A stretch of DNA of 64,000 bases from Whalleya microplaca (taxonomy: Eukaryota > Ascomycota > Sordariomycetes > Xylariales > Xylariaceae): positions 1-64,000 of the forward strand of contig MU385787.1 of NCBI GenBank assembly GCA_022497155.1, in the 5' to 3' direction. Shown here piece by piece: positions 37,369 to 64,000 of this stretch. Each line of letters starts with the position of its first letter. The first letter of the stretch is position 1. A program made the position numbers and the translations under genes. Below the pieces are notes generated by a model. That model saw only the letters and a list, made by a program, of their open reading frames with translations, ran no database searches and had not been told where the DNA came from.

Positions 37369-38611
37369 TATCTCAGCAGACAGTATGATAAAAGGCAAGG
37401 CATACAATGGGACACTAACCGTGCCCTATCCTGTTGTGTGAGTCACTTGTTGTGCCCTGCCTATGACTCGCATACTTGAGTTGAAACGCCCATCCACTTA
37501 CCCTCCATCCTAGATTTTTTTAATGCACGTATGCTATACTCAACATGTCACCCCATACGACTACCAAAGAGACACAAATTTGTAAGTCCCTATCCTGTCT
37601 AAGTTATGGGTAGCGTTGGGTCATGGTCTCAGTTCAACATTTTAACTTCGACGTAGTTGTCTTACGTATTCAAATTCGTTGGATAATGCACGTTACTGCG
37701 AGGGTCGAGAGCGTGCCTATCGCCTTGCATTTCCTATCAGAGCTCCTAATGGAGACGAAGCTCTAATAGCAAATCGTGTATGTAGAGGTGGGAATTAGGT
37801 TCCATGTGAAAGCTTGTATAAACGCAGAGAGAAAAGACGTGTGGTCTTGGATGTACAAGGGTACAGCGAGCTGGAAATATGTTATGACTGGAGGGATCTA
37901 TTTTAATAATATCGTGGCATACGCATTTCTAGCTACATATTAATATCTCTAATCCCTATGTCTCGCAAAATGAAACTCCCCTGAAGTGGTACAGAACAGA
38001 AGCAATATTGAGGTAGTACATATCAGGGCTTATAGGTCGTGAGAACATTACTAATAAGTTACTAATACGCTTTCACAGGCTTTCCCGCAAATAATTACGA
38101 CGCATTCACAAGTGATAGGTAAACACATAAAATTCCAGATGTATTCAATTATCAGATGATCTTCTGCGGTTGTGAATATGGATAGGGGTTACACCATGAT
38201 TCAGGACGTATAACCTAGAACAAAGAGGTCATTAGTTTGACAATACCAATCATCAGCTCAGGCCATGCTCTTAGCGAGTTACATGTCACCTCATCCAGCT
38301 GTTTGTTTCTGTCTAGATTGGATCTGGCTGTCAGCAAACTGTCGCCAGTCGCTAACTCTCGACACAAGTCTGCGAGTCACTCAAGTTCAAGGTGACTAAG
38401 TCGATATCATCTGTAGCGTCAGAAGACTTAGTCACCAATCACTTCGGTGTTTTTTTCCTCATTTGCGTCTACGAAGCTATTTTGTTTGCAGATATCAGCA
38501 AGTCGATACATCTTCTTTCCCTAATATCCTTCTCTAGACTCTACCAAGCATATTACCTTTGACCCTGGGGGAAACACTGGGTAATACTATTGTCCGCTGA
38601 ATATCGGCAAC
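37369..38611. other. Intergenic spacer
   Basis: No supported gene; this is the promoter side of the LysM gene, whose ATG is at 38612. Confidence 0.5.
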
Positions 38612-39787
38612 ATGCGCGCCTTTATATCGATCATTATTGCAGTGGCACACGTCGGTCGGGCCGTAGGCCTTACTGAAGAGTTCACCAGCACAACTACCAT
38701 AACAATAACTCCGATAATCACCGAGACATGGCTTACAACTATCACAGCTAGCTGCAATGCTAGCTCAGATGGACCGCTTTCGGCTTCGTCTTTTACAAGC
38801 CATGAGAGTGTCACCGCGAATACTTCGACGTCACGGACCACGAGCGCGACAAGTGATCATACTACTCCAAGCCTAGTTTCATCTTCTACTGAGCAGCATC
38901 CGTCTGTTAAAACGGTTGGTACACTGACAGTATCCGGATTTATCGTGAAGTCCTCGACAACAAGTTCAGTTGCCGAGCCTACGGCTGCCGAGTATCAAGA
39001 ATTCCATCCTTGGGATAACACCAACGAGATTGACGGAGCTCGGCAGCACACGACTGATACTCGAAACCCCTCTACAGGTCACCATCTTCAGCATAGAAGT
39101 CCAGGAATGTCCCATAGCCTGTGCCGCACTTTACATTCAATCCAGCGGGGAGAGACCTGCGACTCTATCAGCAAAGACAATGGGGTTCCAGTAAACCAAC
39201 TACTGATGGCCAACCCAGCGTTGAAAGGCAAATGCGACGAGCTACCAGAAGGAGAAGTAATATGTATACCGTATCCTGTAAGTCACTGTATCTCTCAACA
39301 CTTCTTAACACAGTTGCTTACAATAAAAATCAAGATCGTCCCTAGGTCCAGGCCCGACAGCACTGGATGCTACCAGAGAGTACCGGCGCCACAAGGGAAG
39401 CAAAGTTGCGATACGGTCGCTGCGGTAGCTGCCCAGCATAATACCACGCTCGACGAGCTCCTTCGATTGAACTCAGGCTTGCACTTGTATGCCTACGGGA
39501 ACTGCACTGTTCTTGTAGAACAGATAGTAATGTGCGTCAATGGAATCATTGGACCAGTAAACGATTCTGGAAAAAGTCCTGTTGGAACTATGGAGTTGCC
39601 TAAACCAGAGTCTAATATCGGCACTACCATTTCGGAAACTATTACTTCAGTAGAAGCCTCCTCAGCAACCGAAACTACCTCGTCTGCGATTACGACCTCG
39701 TCTGCGATTACGGCCTCATCTGCGATTGGGGCTTCTCTCACCTATTCAACCACAAGCGATACTTTGACAGTCATACCGATCCAATAG
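38612..39787 (+). CDS. Secreted LysM-domain protein (372 aa spliced)
   Basis: Exon 1 is 38612-39277, the intron is 39278-39334 (57 bp, GTAAGT, CTTAAC, CAAG) and exon 2 is 39335-39787. The intron is a multiple of three without stops, so the unspliced frame is also open. A signal peptide (MRAFISIIIAVAHVGRAVG) is followed by a Ser/Thr-rich, probably O-glycosylated stretch to about residue 165. LysM1 lies at about 170-222 (HSIQRGETCDSISKDNGV, NPALKGKC, CIPYP). A second, weaker LysM-like unit lies at about 245-290 (QSCDTVAAVAAQHNTTLDEL, LNSGLHLY, CVNG). The C-terminus is again Ser/Thr-rich with short SSAIT repeats. LysM modules bind chitin or other GlcNAc polymers; secreted fungal LysM proteins can shield hyphae or dampen plant immunity, but this cannot be told from sequence. 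Confidence 0.82.
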   Translation: MRAFISIIIAVAHVGRAVGLTEEFTSTTTITITPIITETWLTTITASCNASSDGPLSASSFTSHESVTANTSTSRTTSATSDHTTPSLVSSSTEQHPSVKTVGTLTVSGFIVKSSTTSSVAEPTAAEYQEFHPWDNTNEIDGARQHTTDTRNPSTGHHLQHRSPGMSHSLCRTLHSIQRGETCDSISKDNGVPVNQLLMANPALKGKCDELPEGEVICIPYPVSHCISQHFLTQLLTIKIKIVPRSRPDSTGCYQRVPAPQGKQSCDTVAAVAAQHNTTLDELLRLNSGLHLYAYGNCTVLVEQIVMCVNGIIGPVNDSGKSPVGTMELPKPESNIGTTISETITSVEASSATETTSSAITTSSAITASSAIGASLTYSTTSDTLTVIPIQ

Positions 39788-43423: not shown

Positions 43424-45064
43424 TTAGATGACCGGGTGTCCACCGGGTAATTCGGTAAGCCCTGCCGGGGGGAAAAGAGTTAGCAGGTGGAAGACTGCTC
43501 GGGATGGAAATTTCCATGACCTACAACTATCGATATCCTCTTTGACCATGTCGGGAACTTTGCACTGGTTCTGCTGAGCGATGCCCTGACTCTTAAGCAT
43601 CGGAGCGGAGACGTAGGTATGACCGTCCATAGCCCGTTGTAGTGAATCATCCTATTTCACATGGACTTGTTAGAGATGATTTGGCTCGTAGTCTTTGGGA
43701 GCTCTCGGGAGTGACATAGGAGGTAAACACCAGGTACACAACTCCATGTCTTGCGAGCAAACTGCTCCTGGAACCAACTGGATGGGAAATAAAAGACCAT
43801 CAAGTTACTAACCTTCCAACCAAACATGTAATCAGCATGGGAAGCGTAACCAGTCGAATCGCCCGTGGCCCATACGAATGGCTGTTCATTTGGATCATCG
43901 GGCCAGTCTGCTTTGTTGTTGAACGCCCTGGTATCCCAGACGGTCTCGAGCATAAGTTGGGGCAGTTTGACCGGATGGGTAGAGGGACAAGCGCCTCCAG
44001 ATTCGAAGGTACCAGTTTCCGGGTACGAGACATGGTCTTGATGATTGGGAGAATCGAGGTTCTTACCGTCCCAACAGGTTGGGAAACGATGGTTTGCCAT
44101 GATACCGAGTGTACAAGGTTGAGCAGGAAAGCCTATGGTTTCTGGAGCACGAGTGCCCTGGTTTTCCATACAGATATATGTCAATTGTCGGAACTTTCTA
44201 GCTTGTTCACGGTTATTGAACGTTGAATCGCCAACGAGCATGCGGAAGCCAGGCTTGAACGCTGTAACTGTTGACCTTTGCGCGGTATCGAATAGGGCAT
44301 CAGTCATATAGTAGACGACCTTCGAGTTACGTTAGCCGGGTATTGGACTAGAATAAAATTTAATCGGTACTTACCACTAGAGTGTGAGGAGTCAATATTG
44401 ACTTTCTACGTATTTTGATGAATAATAGGATGTTATAAAACTTGTTTCAGGAGCTTTTGGCTATCCCCCCTAACAGGAAATTCGGGCTCCTTAACAAGCT
44501 ACAGGGGGATAATGACTTACTGCCGCCCTGAGTTCCCTCCATGCCTGCTTGAGCCACTATATGCAGTTCGAAGTTAGCAAATGCTATTTTCAGGTAGTTG
44601 TGGGGCCCCTGAGTGTGTCTTCGTAGTATGAATCTCAGAAATATATGAACAAGGCGGACAGAAGTCCCCTGACAAGATAATATCGAAAGGCAACGCTGAA
44701 TACGTACTCTGCGGGACTCTTTTGAATGTGCCATTCTTTGCACGGAAGAAGAGTACAGCGGTCCAATAATTAGAGAAGTCCTCAGAGAACTGGCAACTTG
44801 TACACGTGGAAAGCGCCGCGAGATCATGCGTCCCGGGCTCCATCGACACGTTGAAAGAATCCTGTGGGTTGTTAGTCACGAGGATTCATATAGAACTACA
44901 ATACGTACGCCACCTATGATCTGATGAAGATGGGATGAAGGATTTTGGCCAGGTTCGACTAGGGGATCGAGACGCTGGACGGTGAGACCAGCACAGCCGA
45001 ATCGAAGAAGCGCGCTGGCGGGTGCAAGCAGCCCGAAGGCAGCGGCACATGTATTGAACTTCAT
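43424..45064 (-). CDS. Secreted DUF1996 protein (369 aa, 6 exons incl. a 2-nt exon)
   Basis: Exons are 44909-45064, 44708-44861, 44521-44583, 44375-44376, 43813-44319 and 43424-43651, in total 370 codons including stop. A signal peptide (MKFNTCAAAFGLLAPASALL) is followed by DUF1996 hallmarks: HLHQIIGG, FNVSM, CTSCQFSEDFSNYWTAVLFF, KPGFRMLVGD, FPTCWDGKNLDSPNHQDHVS, GACPSTHPVKLPQL and a final LPGGHP. The conserved GGMxVYY segment can only be built if the two bases TG at 44375-44376 form an exon, flanked by perfect CTCTAG and GTAAGT sites. DUF1996 proteins are secreted, often next to WSC or cellulose-binding domains, and their biochemical role is unknown. If the micro-exon is wrong, the gene carries a frameshift. 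Confidence 0.78.
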
Positions 45065-51760: not shown

Positions 51761-53025
51761 AGTGAGCTGAGTTGATATCTGATTTCGAGAGACCGCCGGT
51801 GTGACAGACCTTGGACTACTACCTACGGCGAAGTTCACGTATGTGGCATCATCATTCTATTTTTCTTCATTGTACCCCGGTTTTGGTTCTTCTTTTTTGT
51901 TTTAGGGAGAGAGGGGGGTATCCATGCATCAAGAGCAGCACTGCATTCACAGACCGGCGTTTTCAGGAGGTTCTTTTGTTTTATTTTTGGTTTTGTGCTT
52001 TTTTTACATACGTTTCATGCATACGGGGGGTGTCAGAAGCGGAAGGGGGATGGGGAAGGGGGTGGGGGGGTTTGATTCCAATACCTATGCATTTTGTTTA
52101 GTCTATCTGGCCCGGTCCGTTACGCATACGCATACGCATACATTCCCATACATACAGCGAAGGCATTGCATTGCATTCCAGCATTGTTGGAAAGAGAAGA
52201 GAGTTAGCGGGATTCGAAAGGCGGGCGGCTGGCTGCTTGGATTCCCATTTTATGGATTTCCGATAGATGGCGGTGGGAAGAGAAGAAGAAGGAAGAAAAA
52301 GACATTCAGCTTCTGTCTGTGTGTGTGTTGGACTACTACGGCGGAGAGCATGCAATGGAAGTGAGCATGGATGCGCATACATAGGTAGGGTAAACAACAC
52401 GTACATATTGGAAGCGTCGGCGGTCGGATACTTGATACATAGGGAGCATTGAGCTGATTTGTATTGTATTGCATAGGTAGCAGGTATTCGTGTACATGCT
52501 AGATAGATGTGTATAACAGACATATGCATCAGCCGGAAGTTCCCCTGAGCAATTGATGTTGTTGTTAGTGAACCTGGGCTGTCTCGAGTTCCGTTGTGTG
52601 ATCGTCATTTAGGTGCTGTCGTGCTCAATACTAACTGCCCAGGTGGTTAAAGTAAATTGAGAGTTATATTCTTCTGCATATCAAGGTTCTTGCAGCTATC
52701 AGTGGGAAGATCCATCCCGCTGTTTTAAGTGTTAAGCTCTCGGGCCCATTATGTTCCCGAGTTCCATAAGAAAAAGGGGTCCGTTACTCAGTACACCTAC
52801 CCCTATCGTGACATAGATACTATACACTTGTACTAGATAAGGGAGAGCATGGTTTGATAACATGTACGTTCTTTCGGACCTACTGAAGTCAGCTATAACA
52901 ACACAATTCAACAGGAGAACCAACACAGACAACTTGAAACGACATTGCAGCTAAGTCACCAATTAACTATACATTACACAACTAATCTTTAACACACTCG
53001 TCAGTGACTCTAGTCACAAAAGGAG
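51761..53025. other. 3' spacer with short hexamer repeat
   Basis: Three copies of acgcat lie at 52122-52139. Frames here are low-complexity or lack domains. No gene is supported. Confidence 0.55.
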
Positions 53026-55099
53026 TTACAATTCCACCTCCACAACCGGCCCCTCATACTCCTTCTTTCCTTGCAGAAAGTACCAAACGACTGCAAATAA
53101 TGCGGTCGCACCGAAGGTTAGTACGCTAAAATTCATGGTTTCGGGCACGACTGGCGTAACTGGAGGCCAGAAGGCCCAAAACCATACCAACAACAAATAC
53201 ATACATGCGAATGCATTGTTTAGTACACCTAGTACCCCTGGGATGCGCCATGGTCCCCAATGTAAGTTATGCGGGCCGACCCTTCTGACTTCTGAGCTGT
53301 AAGGTTTGATACCTTGTGATTGTAGGCGTCGCCAGAGAAGCAGGGCGCAGCTGAGAAGGTAGGAAGAGTAAAGTCCAGCGATACTCAGATCGACGATATT
53401 ATTAAATGCAACGCTTGAACCGAGGATAATCAGAGAGAGGAGCACGGATACTGTGGTAGTGAATGCGATGGTGTATACAGGAATGGAGGTACGGTGTCCC
53501 AGCTACAAAGGGGGATGTCAGTATACGAAATCGATAGATGCTTGCAGGATATGTAAACATGAAAGAGCTGTATACTTTAATAAATTGTTTCCAAAGCGGA
53601 ATCCCACGGTCTCTTGCAAAGGACCAAAGCATTCTAGACGACGATGCTAGAACACCAACTGTGCTACACACTCCTAGAGTCACAACGATCAATCCCATGA
53701 CAGCTGCGCCTGGGGTTGAGCCTGTTCCTGTTTGGAATACGAATAGAAACGGGTAACCTAACGTCTCCTGGGATTCTAGGACCGCCTCAAGGTCTCCAAG
53801 ACAGAAGAGATATGCAATTAACATTGCAAATCCTAATACGCCATTGACTGCAATGCTGATGACGATAGCTCGCGGTACTACAGTAGATGCGTTTTTGATC
53901 TCCTCGGACATCTTCAGTCATTAGATTATGTGAGAAAGAGAATTGGTGGAGAGAACCCCTCACATGAACAGCTGAATCAGCACCTTGACCGGAGTTAGAT
54001 AAGACGCAACATGGGCTTAAGTTTTGTGACTTCACCTACCAATGAGGGAGAAAACAGAGGCTGGTAGGCCAATCATGAAGGAGAGACCCTGGGTAGGCCA
54101 TCCGCCTTCATTGATAAACGTGGTGAAGAGGGAGGCGTCACCATGAGGGGCGAGGTAAACCAGAGGAATTAAAATACTAAAGAACCCGAGAATATGTAAT
54201 ATCAAAATTAGTCCTTCGAAGTGCGCCAGTGTTTTGCTGGCAACCGTGTTAATAAAAACTGCGAATGCTAAGATTGCCCAGAAGAAAAGCATTGTTTGCC
54301 ATGGCTGTGGCAGGTAGTCCGATTTGAGCATAATAATAACGCTCTGCAACAGGGTTCCTATAAGGTATGCCGCAGATGCAGTAACTGCTTGCCAGCCGAC
54401 AAACGTCATCCAGCCTAAGTTTTGATTAGTGACCTTGAAGTTGGATATCCGGATTCCCATACCAGTGATGTAGCTCAAGAAGCGTCTGGAAGAGTCAGGG
54501 GCTAACATCGCAACCCAGCTAGAACTGATGTTAGTGGAATGGACCAAGGCAACACTAGCCATATCTTACTGATATTGTCCACCTGCAGTCGGCGCCCTGG
54601 TGATATTTTTCAGTTTTTTTTCAATGAAAATTTCGGCGAGTGCTTACATAGAAGCTAGCTCCGACAGTACTGTAAAGGTTGAGATGGTGCCCGCCCAAAC
54701 AACGAGATATCCCCAGATGACGCCTGCAGGACCACCGCTACGTTGGTGAGCTAGGTAGCAGTGATACAGAATAAGACATACTTTAGTAGACTCTGGGTTG
54801 AGACTCTACGATTTGTTAGCTTTGCATATGCAACACAATGACATCTTTCCAACTACGAACATCAGCATCCCCTCCCAAGTAATTAAGACAGTGCATGAGA
54901 AGCCCAGAATTGACATAAATCCAAAATTGCGCTGCTAATTGTTAGAACGTTGCTGACTCCAGAGTGTTCGACTTACTTTCAACACAGGTTTCTTGCCAAG
55001 CCTGATCAGGTCTCTCTCGTCTCTGGTGTATCCTGACATGTCGCCATTCTCAGTAGCAGAGGCCACTGGGGCAGTCTTCGCTAGGCTCTGAAGCTCCAT
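53026..55099 (-). CDS. Amino-acid permease, APC superfamily (531 aa, 11 exons)
   Basis: Exons are 54977-55099, 54857-54931, 54782-54792, 54648-54737, 54570-54596, 54463-54524, 54040-54414, 53964-53983, 53576-53911 and 53026-53502, with every phase consistent; the upstream part may be an eleventh exon. Family blocks appear in order: TWEGML, NGGPAGVIWGY, LSELASMAPTAGGQYH, SYITGWMTFVGWQA, GADSAVHMSEEIKNASTVVP, RDRGIP, LGHRTSIPVYTI and WGPWRIPG. This is a 12-TM plasma-membrane transporter for amino acids, GABA or choline. Exons of 11, 20 and 27 nt are unusual. In-frame sequence just upstream (NRQIGTNALG) looks conserved, so the true start may be in an exon near 55197, but the gap there would be only 32 bp. 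It may supply precursors or be an unrelated neighbour of the peptide cluster. Confidence 0.8.
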
Positions 55100-55919
55100 T
55101 CCCAGTGCATTGGTGCCGATTTGTCTGTTCTGAGGTGAAGATCAATGAGGATGAAAATTACTCGTTCTTCAAAGTTCCAAGGACTTGAAATTTCCATCGT
55201 TCTGGCTAGGGTTCAGCTCGGAAATGCTGTGTTTTCTGAGTAAGCCACTATGAATCGAGCCTGCTCCAGTCCTTACTGTGATACCATCGCACCATCAATG
55301 TTTGCAATCTTGTGTGGCCACAGGCTGTACCGCTATTCTGCTGCGACGCCACCGTGACGATTACATTATTTTAGTTTCACCCGTATTGTTCAAGCACACA
55401 TGCAAGTAACACATCCTTGGACAATAAGTTATTACAATTGGTTGGATACCGGGCTGAGGCTGAGACAATCGCCGAAATCTTGTGATCTCCGAAAACCGGT
55501 CAACAGTAGGGAGGCGCGATGAGTCTGCCAGATGGTGTACCCAGGCCAACAAAGGCTGCTAGCACCTTCGAGCTGACGGGGTTGCACATGATTTCTGGCT
55601 TATCTTAGTTAACCATTGCCTGCATCGTATATATATTTCAATTATACCCAGATCGGATGTAACCTGATCCTACCGGAGACCCCTGTATAGCAGTCGGCTA
55701 CATTATGCATATGCGGCAACGGAGACTTGCATGCTAAAATTATGTTGACTACTAGCGTAAACGTATAACACGAAGCGGTGGTTTACGCCATAGTCGACAA
55801 TAGATTTCATGGCTGCTATATTAGCCACAGAGCTCAAAGACTTCTGAGAACCAGATCTAACGAAACTTGCCATAGTCCACGTAAGTTCATAGTTCCGAAA
55901 CCTACCTCCCTAGTTTGTC
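55100..55919. promoter_or_regulatory. Divergent promoter spacer
   Basis: It lies between the permease (minus) and the 7-TM gene (plus) and may contain the first permease exon near 55162-55197. Nothing else is recognised. Confidence 0.45.
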
Positions 55920-57165
55920 ATGAGTTTAAAGTCATACCGAAGCAGCCCGCGGGAGACCCCGCCAATCAGCGAGAACCATGCTGCACCATTGGTCCAAATT
56001 CTCGCATGGCTTTTGCTTTCGTTCTCTATTCTATCGGTTGCTGCTAAATTCATCACAAAAAGAGTTGTCTCGAAGCCTTTCGGGACTGCTGATGCAGTGT
56101 TATTCTTTGGACTAGTAATACCTTCTATACCCGACACTTCAAAGGCCCGCTAATGATACTAAAACTGCAGGTATTGGGTACAGGACAGACTTCGACCTTG
56201 TTAAGCCCTGCAGGCCAGGTCATTGGAGATAGCCAAGTTGGACTCCCAGAGGGAGAGATAGATGCAGCTCTTAAAGTAGGTCTTCGGGTCTGTTAAACCT
56301 GGGAAAATACTAAGGAAAGTAGGCCTTGTATAGCGGCGAGATGCTTCATATTGTCACACTCGTTCTCGTCAAGGCATTCTTACTAATCTCCCTCATCTCC
56401 ATAACTCCTATCACTGCCCACCGGGTCGCCATATATATAACAGGCATTGTCACCATGGTTTGGGGAATAACTTCTATTTTTATAATTGCTTTCCAATGCC
56501 CATCGCCAAAGAGGTGGAATGTTTTAGAAACAACATGTATCAACATAGTGAGTTTGTGCATTAAAAATTGGAAAATCAACTGACAACTTATCTCAACACA
56601 GCGGAGTGCTAGGACTTATATGGAGGCGATGAATATCTTGACTGATATCGCTCTAATGGTCATCCCATCAGTGATCATCATACCGATTAAACTGTCTTGG
56701 GGAAAGCGCCTCACCATACTGGGAGGGTTTTGGTTTCGTATCGCGTAAGCGCCACAAACATATTATCTAGTCATTAGAACCGTGTTTTCTTGAAACTTGA
56801 GGTATACTACTAACTGTCTCTTCAGGGTGATAATTGCTTCAATATTCCAAATAATTATCAACCAGTATCTTACCTACGACGAAAACTTCCTGAACAACAC
56901 ATGGCGTGCTGTGATATGTGAGGAAATCGTTCAGGCAACGAGCATAACGACAGCATGTATTCCGTTCCTCAAGCCGTTCCTGATGAGCCTTGAGTCGGGT
57001 TTTCTTCGTGCCGATGATATAAATCGACGAACTGCGGCCGGTATAGCTTCGTCCACGGATAAATCTTCAGGGTGGACGTCGAGGTATATCAAGATTCGTA
57101 ATCAGCAAAGCTCAGCAATTTCCGTGGAGCTTCGAGATCATACTCCTCAAAGAGGACTTGACTGA
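55920..57165 (+). CDS. Fungal rhodopsin-like 7-TM membrane protein (335 aa, 5 exons)
   Basis: Exons are 55920-56114, 56171-56275, 56323-56547, 56602-56744 and 56826-57165; introns are 47-81 bp with canonical sites. The product has seven hydrophobic segments and the family pattern GTADAVLFFGL, ALYSGEMLHIVTLVLVKAFLL, RWNVLETTCINIRS, YMEAMNILTDIALMVIP and W(R)AVICEEIVQATSITTACIPFLKPFL. This is the large fungal rhodopsin/SAT4-like integral membrane family, whose members are often found beside secondary-metabolite genes and whose function is mostly unknown. No retinal-binding lysine is assigned. It ends convergently with the iminopeptidase gene. Confidence 0.85.
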
Positions 57166-57610
57166 TGTATATTCACGAATTGTATATAATGTTAGCCATC
57201 CATATGCAATGAGAAAAAGATTCAATTTGAAACGTTTTTTTCGTATGCCATGGATCTGTTTTCCTGCTGCCTCCACAGCATAGCCCGATAGTTAGACAAA
57301 ACGTGCGAGGCGGGGTTGAAATGATAGACGGGCAAGAATGTTCACTTTTCAGTAGGGTGTGCGCCTGCATGCGGTTGGTGTTACTTCAATTGCTACTTAG
57401 GTACCTAGCAGGATTTGTGCCTCCATTCCCGATCCAGTGCCACCCTCTCGGATGAGGTCTCATATCTCCACGAAAATTTCGACTGCATCCCAATAAAAGC
57501 CTGCAGGTGAAAAACGCCACCTTCGTTTTAGTTTCTGAGCCGAGAGCCTGCAGAAGGCTTGAGCCGAATACCTAGTTCCACCAAATCATACATGGAGCAC
57601 CATGTCATGT
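57166..57610. other. Convergent 3' spacer
   Basis: It lies between the ends of the 7-TM and iminopeptidase genes. No gene is recognised. Confidence 0.55.
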
Positions 57611-58624
57611 CTATGCTAGCAAAAATGCCTCCAAATGTTGAATATACTTCTGTCTTTGGTCAACATGGGAAAAATGGGCGGCATTATCTAGTGTCACCCA
57701 TTTCACTTTCTCGATGTGATCGAAGAATGGCTGCATTGCAACATCCTGGGCTTCATCGTCTGTTCCGTTGAGCAGAAGTGTCGGAACTTTAATCTTACTT
57801 AAAAGTGGGATACAAGTCCAGTCACGGAGTGAGCCAGAGATGTAAAGCTCGCTTGGGCCGTACCTATACCTATTCTTAATGTTGTGATACATTGAGGTTA
57901 AAGTGTTGCGTTACTCTTATCGAGAAAAACTGAATGAATAGAAAGCTTACATTGTACCGTATGTCGTCGCGTCTTTGGTGAACCAGCCGAGTGCAGCCTG
58001 TACCTCTTCTGATGGCCATGGCCTAGCAAGGCTGAGATGTCTCTTATAAAAGACTTCTATAGCAGCCTCATACGCTGGACTTTCGAAATCCTGCTTCTCT
58101 TCAGCACGAGTAAGAACTTGCTGGATATCGTCAGGCAATTGCTCTCTCAACGCAGTTATGCCAACTCTCCATGAATCCATGCTCGCCAGGCTGTTGGAAA
58201 TCACTAGGCGTCGGAGATTGACTGAGTTTGGTGTTGCTGCCCATTCGGCTGCAAGCATTCCACCCCACGAGTGTCCATAGACGTCGATAGGTCGATCCTT
58301 TAGCCCAATATGAGCAAGGAGGTTATCAAGCTCGTTTTTAAATAGGTCCACAGACCAGAATTGTTCATCGCCGGCTTTTTCCAGCAGATGGGTGGATCGG
58401 CCGTTCCCAATTTGGTCATAAAAGATGAGTGGCGTAGATGACGTCGACGCAAGGTCTGTCAACGGCAACAAATATTCATGGCATGCCCCAGGGCCTCCAT
58501 GGACCACAATTAGGGGCGTCTTCGATGTATTCAGGTCACCGACGACTTTGTACCAGGTTTGACATGTCTTGGTCAATCCAGGAACCTCGAATTCGGCAAT
58601 CCCCTCTTCAATGTTGAGCCCCAT
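57611..58624 (-). CDS. Proline iminopeptidase, alpha/beta-hydrolase S33 (308 aa)
   Basis: Exon 1 is 57951-58624 and exon 2 is 57611-57863; the 87-bp intron (GTAAGC, TTTAAC, TATAG) joins TTYGTM to YGPSELYISG. The HGGPG oxyanion motif is at about residues 42-46, the nucleophile is Ser119 in GHSWGG, the acid is in NGTDDEAQ (about 260) and the His is in AAHFSH (about 288). The length is normal for the family. The enzyme removes N-terminal proline from peptides. It lies 211 bp downstream of the UstYa-like gene on the same strand, and the nearby precursor has core repeats that start with or contain Pro-Pro, so a role in trimming the cluster peptide is plausible but unproven. Confidence 0.88.
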
Positions 58625-58835
58625 CTTAGCAGGAAGAGCTGTTGTCCTAATCTTCGGGGGAAAGAAAAGTTTTCAAAGAGTAAAAATAAGGGAGCTGTTG
58701 CAGGTTTCATTGATATTATATAAAGAAAAGCTATCTGCAATTGAACTCTTACCCCACCATGTACCTAGGTACTTCGACGGGCCAATGCATCATTTGGGTT
58801 ACAATCTTTGTCTAATGTACGGAACCTAGGTAACC

Positions 58836-59796
58836 CTACAGGGAGGGTTTCTCAAAAGGTCCTGGCTTAACCTTGTACTTGTCCTTTGGAAGCAGCCTCG
58901 CCCTCGCCCACTCATCGATCGCGTCCCAATTGAGGCACACGGTGTCTGAATTTGACCGAAGTTCTTTGCTTGGAAATGCACTATGATCTCCAATCCAGTA
59001 GGCCGTATAGATAGCCACATCAGCTTTGCACATCAGGCTTCGCCTAATAGTGTCAACGCAGTGTGCTTCCTTTTTGTCAGCTATATATACCTTCCACGAG
59101 ACATTATTATAACTTACTTAAGTGTACAATCTTATATTCCACCTCTTCGGCTGTTGCATTCGGATAGTAGTAGTTGGGAAATATGTTCCTCCGTAAGGCA
59201 TCCTAAGAGCTGTATCGGTGCTATGGACTGGTAGATCAAGATTTCAGAACCTACAAGACAGTGAAGCTCGTGATGTACTGAAAGTACAGATACATATCCA
59301 CCATCCGTGAGTTGTACTATTTCTCTGCTGAAATCTGCATTGGCTTGCTCCAGTTCCTGCTTCGAAGCTCGGATGTTGATGGCTGTATACATTTAGCAAA
59401 CTTGGAACGCCCTTAGATACGACTCTCTCCCTACGTACGTTCTAATAAGTAGTCCCAGGCAGTATCAACATCTTTAGGAAGTCCTGTATATTTTGAATCT
59501 TCACCAAAGTACAAGGGCCTCCGTTGGTATGATAGGACATGGTTAACAGGAGCTATATAGGAGTAATTAATGTCCAGTAATATTGGAAAAAGGGCAAATA
59601 ACAACTAACAGTAAGGTTGCGGTATATGATCCCTAGTCCAAAAGACAAGTATAGGGATTGAAACCATGACATACACTACGCAGGCAATAGATAGAGCCAA
59701 ACGCCATACTGTTGGGAGCCAATGGGTATTTCTGTTTCTGAGAGGAAATACATCGTCAAGAAGTGGCTCACGGATTTGCGAAGGAAGTTTTTCCAT
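58836..59796 (-). CDS. UstYa-family (DUF3328) oxidase (252 aa, 5 exons)
   Basis: Exons are 59610-59796, 59439-59552, 59255-59382, 59118-59202 and 58836-59080; all phases agree. One TM helix (about residues 29-53, WRLALSIACVVYVMVSIPIL) anchors the protein. Then come the family landmarks: VNHVLSYQRRPLYFG, YTGLPKDVDTAWDYLL, GGYVSVLSVHHELHCL (first motif HHELHC, residues 137-142), NYYYPNA, and AHCVDTIRRSLMCKAD (second HC motif at 178-179). These two His/Cys motifs are the presumed metal-binding catalytic site. UstYa/Yb proteins perform the oxidative macrocyclisation of ustiloxin-type RiPPs. The fourth intron is only 37 bp, very short for a fungus. The gene appears intact. Confidence 0.9.
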
Positions 59797-61114
59797 AATG
59801 ATGACCTGAAGCGTTTCTTTAAGCTTAAGTTTCAAATTTGAGATGTGTACTTGAATTCCGATGTGGGAAAAACTTTAGTAGACGAAGTCGAAAGACATCA
59901 TTCAAATCTGGTTTCCTACGCTGCATCGGAATGCTAACTGATATCTAATATTGCGGATGCAATCGCGAATTGCTGAGGTCACAAACCCCTCTTTTCAAGG
60001 GCGAGTAGCACCATGCAGATACTCGTCAGTATGTGGTGACCCTGTTCAACTTTAGGCCAGGCTACATCCAGAACTCTCCGACCTCTTGCATCTCTGCACA
60101 GTTATTAGCGTGTGGCTTGCAAAGCGGGAGATACCACAACTGTATGGGGTGGGTTGCACCAACTCCTTGATACATGTAGCCAATAGCTTTTCACCTAGAC
60201 CCTCTCTTGGCCCAATCATTGAATTATCTATGTGACGACCCGTCGCTTCTAGAGCCTCACTGATAAGGTTTATTTGGTCCTGAGACGGATGTAACCCTGA
60301 AGCAGTTTGGCCGTGAGATGCCTCATTTCCACGCCTATTTCTGTGACTACAGCTTGATATGCCATGGGTAGTAAACCTAGAGTGCATCCAGATGAATTAC
60401 CTGCTTAGTGTCTCAGTGTCTGCCGCTGTGTACCGTCTCTAGAGCGGCAAAGCGTGTGGATGAACTCCAGAAGATGCAACATGGCAGAATCCATACAATG
60501 TGTGTGCGACTGTCAGGCTGACACGAACAGCAGACAAGGCCTCCTATTTGTGAGTTCTCCTCATCGATTTGATGCGATGTAAGACATTCGGTGGTAACGT
60601 TATAACTGATTAATTTAACTTCGGTTGACTTCTATGGGTATAGTGTTGCTTTACTGGACGCTGCTCACCGCCACATGACAAGATAACTACACCATCGACA
60701 ATGTTGCGCAAGATAACCATGGATCTTCTCCCTAGCTATATATTAATTACTGTTGCATGATCCTAATGCAAGGTATCGTATAGCATCGGTAAGCTATTCA
60801 TGACAGCAGCATACTTTCCCGATCTACTCAATGCTCACCTTTATCAACCCCAGCAGCATTGGGCCCTCCTTTCTATCTACCGGCATGAGAGAAGTGACAC
60901 CGAAGTTCATGCCAAAATCCAAGAAAGTTATCGCACTTTTGGGACCCCTCTTGTTCTCGTCAACCAAATCATCTGCCGTGGGTGGCTTGGTGGAATGTTG
61001 TACCCAAGAATACCATAAATACCTTTCCTTCTTCTATGAGATACTTTCTTGAAAGTCGAATCTACGAGCAAATCATCTTTCCAGTGCTGAGTATAATCGA
61101 TCTTACATTCCACC
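59797..61114. promoter_or_regulatory. Divergent spacer between UstYa-like and precursor genes
   Basis: This 1.3-kb interval holds the promoters of both genes. Just before the precursor are an AT-rich box (about 61013-61020) and a pyrimidine-rich stretch. A 111-codon minus-strand frame (60052-60387) has no recognisable domain and is not called. Confidence 0.45.
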
Positions 61115-61571
61115 ATGCATCTTAATCTAGTCCTTCTGTTTGCTTTCTCCCTGGCTGCTATGTCTGCACCAATAGGTCCGTGTTTCAACAGATTTGGTTT
61201 TAAATGTTTTGTCACTAATTTGTTAGCAAATGAAAACAATATGGCCTTCCAAAAGCGTTTGTTTTATCTCCCTCTTGTATTATTAGATACAGTAATTAAT
61301 ATTTGAAGCAGAGAAGCGTGCTATCCTCTCTCGTCCACCACTCTGGGATGGTGGAGTAGACTTTGAAGAAGAGAAGGCGAAGCGCACTAGTCCTGAGCCT
61401 CCACTATGGGATGGCGGAGTAGACTTTGAAGAGGAGAAGGTGAAGCGCTCTAGTCCTGAGCCACCACTATGGGATGGCGGAGTAGACTTTCAAGAAGAGA
61501 AGGCGAAGCGCAGCAGTCCTGGGCCTCCACTATGGGATGGTGGTGTTGAATTACCCTCAAGCAGTGAGTAG
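61115..61571 (+). CDS. Dikaritin-like RiPP precursor with four KR-separated repeats (106 aa)
   Basis: Exon 1 (61115-61175) encodes a signal peptide, MHLNLVLLFAFSLAAMSA. The 136-bp intron (61176-61311) has a GTCCGT donor and a GCAG acceptor, with an alternative AAG acceptor 3 bp earlier. Exon 2 (61312-61571) starts with a Lys-Arg site and encodes four repeats of about 21 residues, each centred on PPLWDGGV(D/E). The first three end in acidic residues followed by KAKR or KVKR; the last lacks a terminal KR and ends at the stop. This is the layout of ustiloxin, phomopsin, asperipin and epichloecyclin precursors, where Kex2-type proteases release repeated cores. The only aromatic residues in the repeats are Trp in the core and a Phe after it; there is no Tyr. 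The intron donor is somewhat weak, so exon 1 is less certain than exon 2. Confidence 0.82.
61320..61568 (+). repeat. Coding tandem repeat of precursor cores
   Basis: Units are 61320-61385, 61386-61448, 61449-61511 and 61512-61568. The two middle units are 63 bp each and differ at 5 positions, so the repeats are recent or homogenised. Unit 1 has its own N-terminal part, and unit 4 diverges after the core. Confidence 0.9.
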
Positions 61572-63281
61572 GCTTCGGCTGGACGGATGGATCATGTCGA
61601 CTTGAGAGATAGGCCATCTTAAGCTACTGGGTCTCCATACGGAACATCTACTGAATTTTCTATCATTTTTTCCCTATATATAAGAGCAAATAATATTCTC
61701 CTAAACACATACATATTATTGATGTCACATATTTTAGGCAAGTCTACCCATCTCTACATACAACAAGTATTCTCCACATTATACATAGTGAGGGAATATT
61801 CTTCACGGGTAGCATTGCAATATATCCCCAAGCAAGAACTAAGTAGTCATTGTTTTACAATAAATGAATACTAGCAAGGCATTCTTGTAATGGAAGCATA
61901 TATGAAATGATTTCGCACGAGGTGGGACGCCTGTACCTTGGTGCTCACAGACCCGGATTCTACTGTACTTACCCTTTTCTCGCTGCCTTTTGTCGAAATC
62001 CGCCAGGAGCACTGATGCTAGACATCACCATACTAGGGATAGTTTACAACAATTCTGCGTAGTCTTGGCAGGGCATAATTAGCAACCCTGAAGCTTTCCT
62101 GCTTTTCAACGACACCTAGATGGAATTATTACCAATGACAATATTGTGCTATCGAATACTTTGAAACTGCCATTGTCTTCTCAACAAGATTGTTTGGGGA
62201 GGGGGGCTTGCCAATTGAAGATCCCGAAGTATGTAGGTACGGGATAAGTCGAGTGTGGTTGGATGGGAAACTTATGGAGGAAAGGGAACGCGGCTGGCCC
62301 CAGAGCAGTGGTAGTTAGGTGGCAAATACTTACCCTGGTAGCATACATGTAGGTAGGTAGGCTTTAGATTAATAGGGCCAAAATAAAGTCTCGGGTATGC
62401 TCTCATCCGTAGGGCCCCAATTGCCTCACAATGTACGGTATATAGTCCTGATTCCTATAATGGCGCTTAATTACATCATGAAAGGGTATTGTCACCCTAT
62501 AGATACTTCCTGCACTCATATTGGACATTCCTTCTAGCGGATGACATGAGCGATTAGGGTCACACGCGCTGATAGGAGGATCGAGGCTGTGGTTATAGGC
62601 ACAACTTCGTAGTGCCTTTGCTGTTGAAGTACAACTAGAACGGTAGTTCTTACTACAAGGATAGCACTTAATTCACAATACTTCGAGTGTTCAGGAGGAC
62701 TGCTACTCGGTACTGAACTTATTAGTTTCATTGCATATTGTGATATCTTTGTACTTGTTACTACCAATGCGCTACTTATTTTAATATGTTACACCTCTCA
62801 CACTTCTGGGGTGCAGTATGTCGCACAAGATAGAGGCCCTTTGATCCCTGTAATTCAACGTTAGAACAGTGTACCACATCTACGCTTTGCTGCAATGCAA
62901 CTATGGTCGCTACGGGCACTTCTGGATACGTGGCGCATCCCAGATACATACTACCTTACTGAACGACTACGAACTATACGAAGCAGAACGGTACTGGGTT
63001 AAGGCTAACAGTGTACATCCTTGAGATCCGCAGCACGTGCAGTTAGCCACATATGATAATCAGCGTGCCAAGCCTTGTCTGTAGCAATAAGAAGAAAGCG
63101 TAATACGTTTTCCTCGATGCAAAAGAAAATCAGCTTGAATTCATAAGCCTAGCGTCTATCATCAGTCTAGAATTGGCAGCAGTTAGTATCTCGTGAAACC
63201 AACTACTTCCCCCCCGGGGTTTTGATTAAAGTGGAGTTCTGGTTGAGGAATCTCGTTATCTTGCTTGATTCGCACTTAGAC
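61572..63281. other. Gene-poor spacer (1.7 kb)
   Basis: No second UstYa gene, tyrosinase or methyltransferase frame is visible here. It contains the 3' region of the precursor and the promoter of the transporter. Confidence 0.5.
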
Positions 63282-64000
63282 ATGGAAGCGATAGAGGATC
63301 AAAATACCTTCCCACGGGATGCGACTCCCGAGGAGATCCAAACACTCATCCACGAAGTTGATGAGATACCGACCACAGTCTGGCTCCTGACATTCACTGG
63401 GGCAGCTTCGCAGCTTGCACGATACGGAATCACAGTGGCATGGCGTGAGTCTGAGCAATCCTAGGAGTGGCAATCTCTCTCACAGAATTTAGAAAACTAT
63501 CTCCAAAATCCGCGCGGGAACGAGCTCCTTCCTGGGGCACTGAACCTGGGCCAGTCCAAGGCGACGATAATCCAAAATTCCTTTTTGTTCTTTCAATACT
63601 TGACTCCGCTGCCATTTGCACTGATATCAGATATGTGGATTGGGCGTTACAAGACCATGCTCATATGTCTTGGGTGAGTGACGTCCATGACTATGAGATC
63701 AAGTCAAGCTTCAATAACTGAGACTGGTTAGACTATTGGTAATAGGATACATGGTGTTAGTTACTACATCTATTCCTGGAGCACTGGAGCACGGAGCCGG
63801 AATTGGGGGTCTAGCGACTACTATGGTGCTAATTGGCCTGGGTCAAGGAGGTTTGTCAGCAGTCATGTATCCATTCATAGGCAAGTAAGATAGACTTTAT
63901 GGAGAGTTGTCCTTGAACTAATAGTAACTTAGCCGATCAGATCCCAGACGCAACCCCGAAAGTAAAGCGGAACAAGAAGGGTGAGCTTTTTGTGACGGAC
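63282..64000 (+). CDS. POT/PTR2 peptide transporter, 5' part (runs off window)
   Basis: Exons are 63282-63444, 63493-63673, about 63746-63880 and 63933 to beyond 64000. The joined sequence shows family blocks QNYLQNPRGNELLPGALNLG, ATIIQNSFLFFQYLTPLPFA, ISDMWIGRYKTM, MVLIGLGQGGLSAVMYPFIA and DQIPDATPKVKRNKKGELF, typical of proton-coupled di/tripeptide transporters. The intron at 63881-63932 is a GC-AG intron (GCAAGT donor). At the second intron the canonical donor GTGAGT leaves the frame one base out relative to the next TM segment; one G fewer at 63672-63674 would fix it. That may be a true frameshift or a sequence error. The gene could be the transporter of the neighbouring peptide cluster. 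Confidence 0.72.

Follow-up and report, generated by a model that had tools for sequence, protein, structure and literature searches.

A locus on a 162,368-bp contig of Whalleya microplaca (Xylariales; genome 48.1 Mb) is best read as a small dikaritin-like RiPP pathway, in which a UstYa protein oxidises the Trp-containing, Tyr-free core of a Kex2-processed repeat precursor; we put the probability of this reading at about 0.78. The locus lies in the window, the whole 64,000-nt stretch analysed (bases 1–64000 of the contig). The reading draws on the repeat precursor, the conservation of its core, an intact UstYa gene adjoining it, apparent linkage of the two genes elsewhere and core divergence between copies that is silent only. 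The pair is probably a real natural-product pathway of a known type, with a putative product.

The precursor gene (F5B20DRAFT_476755, plus strand, 61115–61571 of the window) encodes a signal-peptide-like N-terminus followed by four copies of PPLWDGGV with Lys-Arg between them. The first-pass annotation, made from the letters alone, had expected ordinary gene callers to miss so short a split gene; it is in fact already annotated, the deposited protein (P0003) having 133 residues. In the deposited model exon 1 (61115–61256), which begins MHLNLVLLFAFSLAAMSAPI, is joined to exon 2 (61312–61571, four core copies and stop) across a 55-nt GT..AG intron (61257–61311, GTTTGT..GCAG). This differs from the junction 61175/61312 proposed before, in which exon 1 ends at 61175 and a 136-nt intron has the donor GTCCGT. 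Both versions give an identical frame, signal peptide and repeats, and the splice choice sets the residue ahead of the first KR. The putative signal peptide, assigned by eye, is the first ~18 codons of exon 1 (MHLNLVLLFAFSLAAMSA), a hydrophobic stretch with AMSA at its end; the precursor's relatives (see below) have similar starts, except P0010. Exon 2 reads KR-AILSR-PPLWDGGV-DFEEEKAKR-TSPE-PPLWDGGV-DFEEEKVKR-SSPE-PPLWDGGV-DFQEEKAKR-SSPG-PPLWDGGV-ELPSSSE-stop, and codon-by-codon comparison places copies 1 to 4 of the core at 61335–61358, 61398–61421, 61461–61484 and 61524–61547 (all plus strand). The four Lys-Arg-separated repeats are therefore present as first claimed, in the translation and as a 63-bp tandem array. 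Their description as near-identical holds for the four cores but not for the ends of the array: ahead of copy 1 stands AILSR, where the other copies have [TS]SPx, and copy 4 runs into ELPSSSE and lacks a following KR.

Tandem Repeats Finder reports the 63-bp unit in 3.2 copies at 61338–61540 (90% matches), with a score of 336, which tops the 11 rows reported for the window. When open frames were scanned for similar segments flanked by dibasic sites, the window yielded the precursor array (3 similar pairs) and one Arg-rich low-complexity frame (1 pair). The same scan, run on 60 resamplings of the window by a first-order Markov model, gave 0 frames of either kind (0/60), and a chance repeat was set aside as the source of the array. 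In the 48.1-Mb genome the core pattern, with ≤3 mismatches allowed, matches solely in this array (3 places), and the exon-2 protein searched against the genome at E ≤ 10 has this locus as its sole match. Weak Pfam matches of exon 2 (CI-B14_5a and three others) fall under the curated cut-offs and are taken as repeat noise. Having at least two similar segments split by dibasic sites, the precursor shows the layout described for Kex2-processed repeat proteins (KEPs) by Umemura 2020 (PMC7329392).

The UstYa/DUF3328 gene (PF11807) occupies 58836–59796 on the minus strand, head-to-head with and divergent from the precursor gene, the start codons being 1.3 kb apart. It is the strongest evidence for the reading and does not figure in the first-pass annotation. 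Its five exons (59796–59610, 59552–59439, 59382–59255, 59202–59118 and 59065–58836, the last including the stop) encode 247 residues, and the deposited protein P0011 matches the joined exons exactly. PF11807 is detected on adjacent minus-strand exons with E values of 1.2e-14 (55.1 bits, above cut-off) and 7e-05 (23.2 bits, below cut-off alone). P0011 joins this match to the second hallmark of the family, both HxxHC motifs being intact (HELHC and HLTHC). A splice model with a 37-nt last intron breaks the second motif and was rejected; the deposited intron (59117–59066) keeps it. In CctR, another UstYa/DUF3328 protein, the two motifs together build a two-copper centre, and activity is lost when they are mutated to alanine (PMC12435403). 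P0011 is predicted to resemble CctR in having an N-terminal hydrophobic helix (residues 27–57) and two HxxHC helices (134–148 and 161–185), in an AlphaFold model of low confidence (mean pLDDT 54.1; 10-residue mean mostly 68–84 in the motif helices). Compared with PDB sequences at E ≤ 1, the UstYa protein gave 0 matches. The six frames of the gap between the two genes (59797–61118), translated with stops as X, contain no Pfam match at E ≤ 0.5 (0/6), and a third gene between them was set aside. UstYa genes are common in this genome, since at least 34 PF11807 matches occur in it (counted exon by exon); on this contig there is one UstYa among the matches listed. With a PF11807 gene 1.3 kb from a KEP precursor, the locus has the pairing expected of a dikaritin cluster, UstYa being the enzyme by which such clusters are defined.

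A search of related genomes for homologous repeats, which the first-pass annotation had proposed as a check, yielded seven further precursors with this core. The protein search (E ≤ 10) gave 8 precursors among 1188 candidates, from Whalleya, Xylaria curta, Camillea tinctor, Melanomma pulvis-pyrius, Monosporascus sp., X. grammica and X. digitata, together with the JGI protein P0010. Monosporascus sp. belongs to the Xylariales and Melanomma pulvis-pyrius to the Dothideomycetes; the precursor core thus spans two classes, Sordariomycetes and Dothideomycetes. The copy that aligns best in each protein reads PPLWDGG in 8/8 precursors, a set biased towards sequences that keep the core because relatives were found by core words. 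The 8 precursors hold 21 copies in total (4, 3, 2, 2, 3, 2, 2 and 3), 17 of which match PP[LI]W[DN]G[GA][VIM]. The four degenerate copies are the third of X. curta, the third of Monosporascus and two of the three in P0010, and the relatives of the Whalleya precursor have two intact copies at most. Counted manually over all 21 copies, Trp is in place in 17, PP in 18 and the first Gly in 17. Among the 17 intact copies the invariance of P, P, W and G is no evidence, the selecting pattern demanding them; at the variable positions L occurs 15 times and I twice, D 16 times and N once, G 16 times and A once, and V 13 times, I three times and M once. The flanks of these copies are mostly S-P-x ahead and [DE]-F behind. 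The residues ahead of the unit are KR in 11, DR in 2, and RR, QR, ER and RA in 1 each, RA at that offset being Whalleya copy 1. As KR precedes 11/17 units, kexin cutting is unequally likely among the copies. No Tyr occurs past residue 20 in any of the 8 precursors. Cys past residue 20 occurs in Whalleya P0003 alone of the 8, within the disputed linker; exon 2 and its four units contain none.

When the four Whalleya cores are compared codon by codon, 5 nucleotide sites vary and 5/5 of these changes are silent. Random single changes in the core would be silent in 27.8% of cases, and 5/5 would arise by chance with a probability of about 0.2% if sites are independent, a test that is approximate owing to gene conversion between copies. 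In the flanking codons compared, 29/29 variable sites lie in codons with a differing amino acid, a count made per codon that includes some silent differences.

The pairing with UstYa appears to recur in other genomes. At E ≤ 1e-20, 19 UstYa homologs were found among 229 candidates, and location on the same contig was inferred from contigs of equal size in bp. By this measure 5/8 precursors, Whalleya included, have a close UstYa homolog on their contig: Whalleya (162,368 bp, tags 476755/565440), Camillea (591,403 bp, 669589/669587), Melanomma (77,685 bp, 324692/324690), X. grammica (448,630 bp, 375290/364129) and X. digitata (392,469 bp, 462513/462510). The X. grammica UstYa tag number is distant from that of the precursor; tags are not always positional, because the Whalleya genes, 1.3 kb apart, are themselves 476755 and 565440. 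The probability of the four coincidences beyond Whalleya is about 2e-9, assuming genomes of ~45 Mb and independence. Among the 19 homologs none lies on the precursor's contig for X. curta, Monosporascus or the JGI contig, and 14/19 UstYa homologs lack a partner among the precursors found; precursors near those 14 may be unannotated, diverged or absent. Paired HxxHC motifs are present in 15/19 homologs. In the other four (P0022, P0023, P0027 and P0028) at least one motif is missing, apparently because of mis-splicing. Neither motif is present in P0027, the X. grammica model, and the C-terminus of P0029, the X. digitata model, is aberrant; both models look mis-spliced.

The claim that the precursor has the exact architecture of dikaritin precursors stands in part. 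Ustiloxin, phomopsin, asperipin-2a and victorin share with the Whalleya locus a signal-like start, near-identical kexin-separated cores and an adjoining UstYa/DUF3328 gene, and asperipin-2a, as the 2020 KEP survey presents it, has a single UstYa as here (PMC7329392). The likeness ends at the core, which lacks Tyr and has no known cyclised product. In ustiloxin, phomopsin and asperipin-2a the cross-link is made at Tyr (PMC7329392), whereas 8/8 precursors are without it past residue 20. According to the survey, 22% (1758) of 7878 KEPs have DUF3328 genes nearby, and the repeats of DUF3328-linked KEPs contain Tyr in 65.6% and Trp in 20.5% (PMC7329392). Tyr is not universal in the group, because about a third of these repeats do not hold it, and by the same percentages a UstYa-linked KEP with Trp and no Tyr is, as a class, not without precedent. 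Seven of the 23 abundant KEP types are DUF3328-linked, of which P-3 is noted for W (PMC7329392); the sources given there for P-3 (Fonsecaea, Cladophialophora, Galerina, Psilocybe and Coprinellus) include none of the genera carrying PPLWDGG. Counting against the preferred reading, DUF3328-linked KEPs show no enrichment of W in the survey (20.5% with, 24.5% without; PMC7329392), the core has no Tyr, and none of the 19 UstYa homologs shares a contig with 3/8 precursors. The units lacking KR ahead of them, the four degenerate copies and the X. grammica UstYa model weigh on the same side.

In the proposed pathway a repeat protein with four PPLWDGG[V/I] cores would enter the secretory pathway, and kexin would cut after Lys-Arg, freeing units of ~19 residues such as SSPEPPLWDGGVDFQEEKA. 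Membrane-bound UstYa, presumably with two coppers as in CctR, would then oxidise the conserved core, and trimming at both the N- and the C-terminus would leave a short modified peptide, a step in which peptidases specific for Pro may share, the adjacent S33 enzyme possibly among them. Calculated [M+H]+ values for candidate products are 646.3195 for LWDGGV (644.3038 after loss of 2H), 743.3722 for PLWDGGV (741.3566), 840.4250 for PPLWDGGV (838.4094) and 1102.5204 for PPLWDGGVDF (1100.5047). If UstYa cross-links, Trp is the likeliest partner because it is the sole aromatic residue of the core (Phe lies just beyond). We suggest tentatively, at odds below even, that the single copper UstYa joins the Trp indole to a neighbouring Leu, Asp or Val side chain of PPLWDGG[V/I]. 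The product would then be a Tyr-free, Trp-bridged macrocycle, by analogy with plant BURP-domain peptides, and could represent a widespread fungal family, a suggestion as speculative as the bridge itself. Were such a family real, conservation of the core in Sordariomycetes and Dothideomycetes would speak for a single conserved target and against a fast-evolving toxin.

UstYa might instead modify the core without forming a ring, by hydroxylation, halogenation or desaturation. This is a sub-case of the preferred reading and holds a similar, minority share of the probability. DUF3328 proteins have been implicated in halogenation, hydroxylation, macrocyclisation and isomerisation (PMC12435403), CctR hydroxylates cyclochlorotine, and the UstYa homologs of phomopsin also desaturate residues (PMC10512285). 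The core, moreover, offers no Tyr for the known ether link. Against this, the role documented for UstYa in KEP clusters, as set out in the survey, is cyclisation of the core (PMC7329392). A minimal conserved precursor with one UstYa and a Tyr-free core offers a compact test of what these copper enzymes do without tyrosine.

It is unlikely, though worth weighing, that the precursor yields an unmodified secreted signalling peptide (a pheromone-like KEP) and that UstYa is an incidental neighbour; kexin and dipeptidyl peptidases would then free a linear receptor ligand of the SPxPPLWDGGV type. Alpha-pheromone precursors of ascomycetes are likewise secreted kexin-processed repeats, with Pro-containing N-terminal dipeptides, and their core is Cys-bracketed (W-C...C-W). 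The X-Pro dipeptides ahead of the Whalleya core fit dipeptidyl trimming, and a core kept across genera and two classes is ligand-like when set against hypervariable RiPP cores. The four units, however, differ from alpha-pheromone precursors in lacking the Cys-bracketed core, exon 2 having no cysteine, and in having a DUF3328 neighbour, and a mating pheromone was rejected on these two grounds. The pheromone pattern WCxxxGQxCW has 0 exact matches genome-wide and did not locate Whalleya's true pheromone gene. The recurrence of a UstYa homolog on an equal-sized contig for 5/8 precursors also argues against an incidental neighbour, and the KEPs annotated in the survey as mating factors or pheromones are without DUF3328 neighbours, with three exceptions (PMC7329392). 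That the array is a functionless decaying tandem repeat, as the degenerate copies of X. curta, Monosporascus and P0010 might suggest, is very improbable given the open frame, a core that diverges at silent sites only, the occurrence of relatives in two classes of fungi and the intact UstYa adjoining.

The statement that no described peptide has this core agrees with a search of 5.39 million full texts, figures and supplementary tables aside, from which PPLWDGG, LWDGGV and LWDGGI are absent; the main text of Le Marquer 2019 contains neither WDGG nor PPLW (PMC6339444). The core may possibly have been catalogued earlier in supplementary tables or figures. A 2022 review lists five characterised UstYa-processed fungal peptides (PMC10512285), few beside the 1758 DUF3328-linked KEPs counted in the survey. 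KEP repeats are described there as highly diverse (PMC7329392), against which a conserved core poses a testable question about function. Among related fungi, ustiloxin-like RiPP clusters are reported in Hypomontagnella species, H. rubiginosum and H. pulicicidum in a survey of Hypoxylaceae and Xylaria hypoxylon, where the RiPP finding, as described, hinged on similarity to known precursors (PMC8403587).

Downstream of UstYa and on the same strand lies a gene for an S33 proline-specific peptidase (P0030, 308 residues, 57611–58624, minus strand), with PF00561, PF12697 and PF12146 above cut-off. The protein resembles in sequence the proline iminopeptidases 7a6g and 3wmr of the PDB over residues 20–302 (E 2.7e-72 for 7a6g), and it aligns with both in the regions of the catalytic Ser, Asp and His, at positions that we take to be those of the triad; it is on this basis an alpha/beta hydrolase with the Ser-Asp-His triad of S33, and its role in the pathway is putative. 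A possible substrate for trimming is at hand in that the core starts with PP and most copies have SPx ahead. S33 homologs number 1633 at E ≤ 1e-30, and among the 120 of these that were listed, at least 8/19 UstYa proteins have one on an equal-sized contig. In Xylariales sp. 14919 the S33 and UstYa tags are neighbour-like (ANO14919_111970 and ANO14919_111980), and a JGI contig of 12,314 bp appears to carry both precursor P0010 and an S33 (P0123). Three other shared contigs exceed two megabases, and contig sharing there therefore means little. In a tree of the 69 listed proteins of at least 280 residues (of 120), the nine S33s on contigs equal in size to those of UstYa or precursor are scattered, which leaves a dedicated pathway S33 unsupported. 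Many genomes with S33s of the subfamily have no UstYa homolog among the 19, and Whalleya itself has a closer S33 paralog on another contig (C13), more than 400 kb from that contig's UstYa matches. P0030 is accordingly a plausible, unproven candidate for the Pro-trimming step of this pathway.

On the other side of the precursor, the probable 5' part of a POT/PTR2 oligopeptide transporter gene (63282–64000, plus strand, start set by eye) is a candidate neighbour. The gene extends to contig position ~65223 (L004:1223), and its Pfam match lies solely at L004:258-1223. In a six-frame Pfam scan of 52001–64000 (E ≤ 0.01) the matches are to UstYa, alpha/beta hydrolase (S33), amino-acid permease and a trace of fungal rhodopsin, with none to a tyrosinase, methyltransferase, P450 or flavin monooxygenase; such a scan misses some split exons, the precursor and the PTR2 start likewise going unmatched. 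Just past PTR2 there is an aldehyde dehydrogenase exon (L004:3020-3475, minus strand, PF00171, E 2.4e-35). Amino-acid permease exons occupy 53026–54565 (minus strand), and between these and S33 lies a fungal rhodopsin trace (PF20684, 56323–56583, plus strand; 28.7 bits against a cut-off of 27, and 25 bits in the six-frame scan). A cytochrome P450 gene (41644–43011, plus strand, E 6.2e-40) is found about 15 kb from S33, with a DUF1996 gene (43657–44331, minus strand) and a LysM protein gene (38585–39787, plus strand) as neighbours.

Other UstYa-linked loci were seen in the Whalleya genome. A second adjacent pair of S33 (102719–103835, minus strand) and UstYa (104439–104898, minus strand) lies on contig C20 (98500–112000; L047/L048), arranged and oriented like the pair in the window. 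The repeat scan of 13.5 kb around it detected no KEP, and Tandem Repeats Finder gave 0 rows on 7.5 kb of this stretch. Frames in L047 that by eye resembled fungal rhodopsin received no confirmation from Pfam and were set aside. On contig C23 (396458–399949; from L012:472, plus strand) a repeat precursor lies close to UstYa matches, reading EEPSVDVGDGF-KR-EEPSVDVGDGF-KKR behind a signal-like start; the sole aromatic residue of its repeat is Phe. A third KEP-like frame, by a UstYa match on contig C4 (378989–382222; from L029:2925, plus strand), has the Tyr-containing repeats DNYFEPGSFARR and DEETYFEPGSFAKR.
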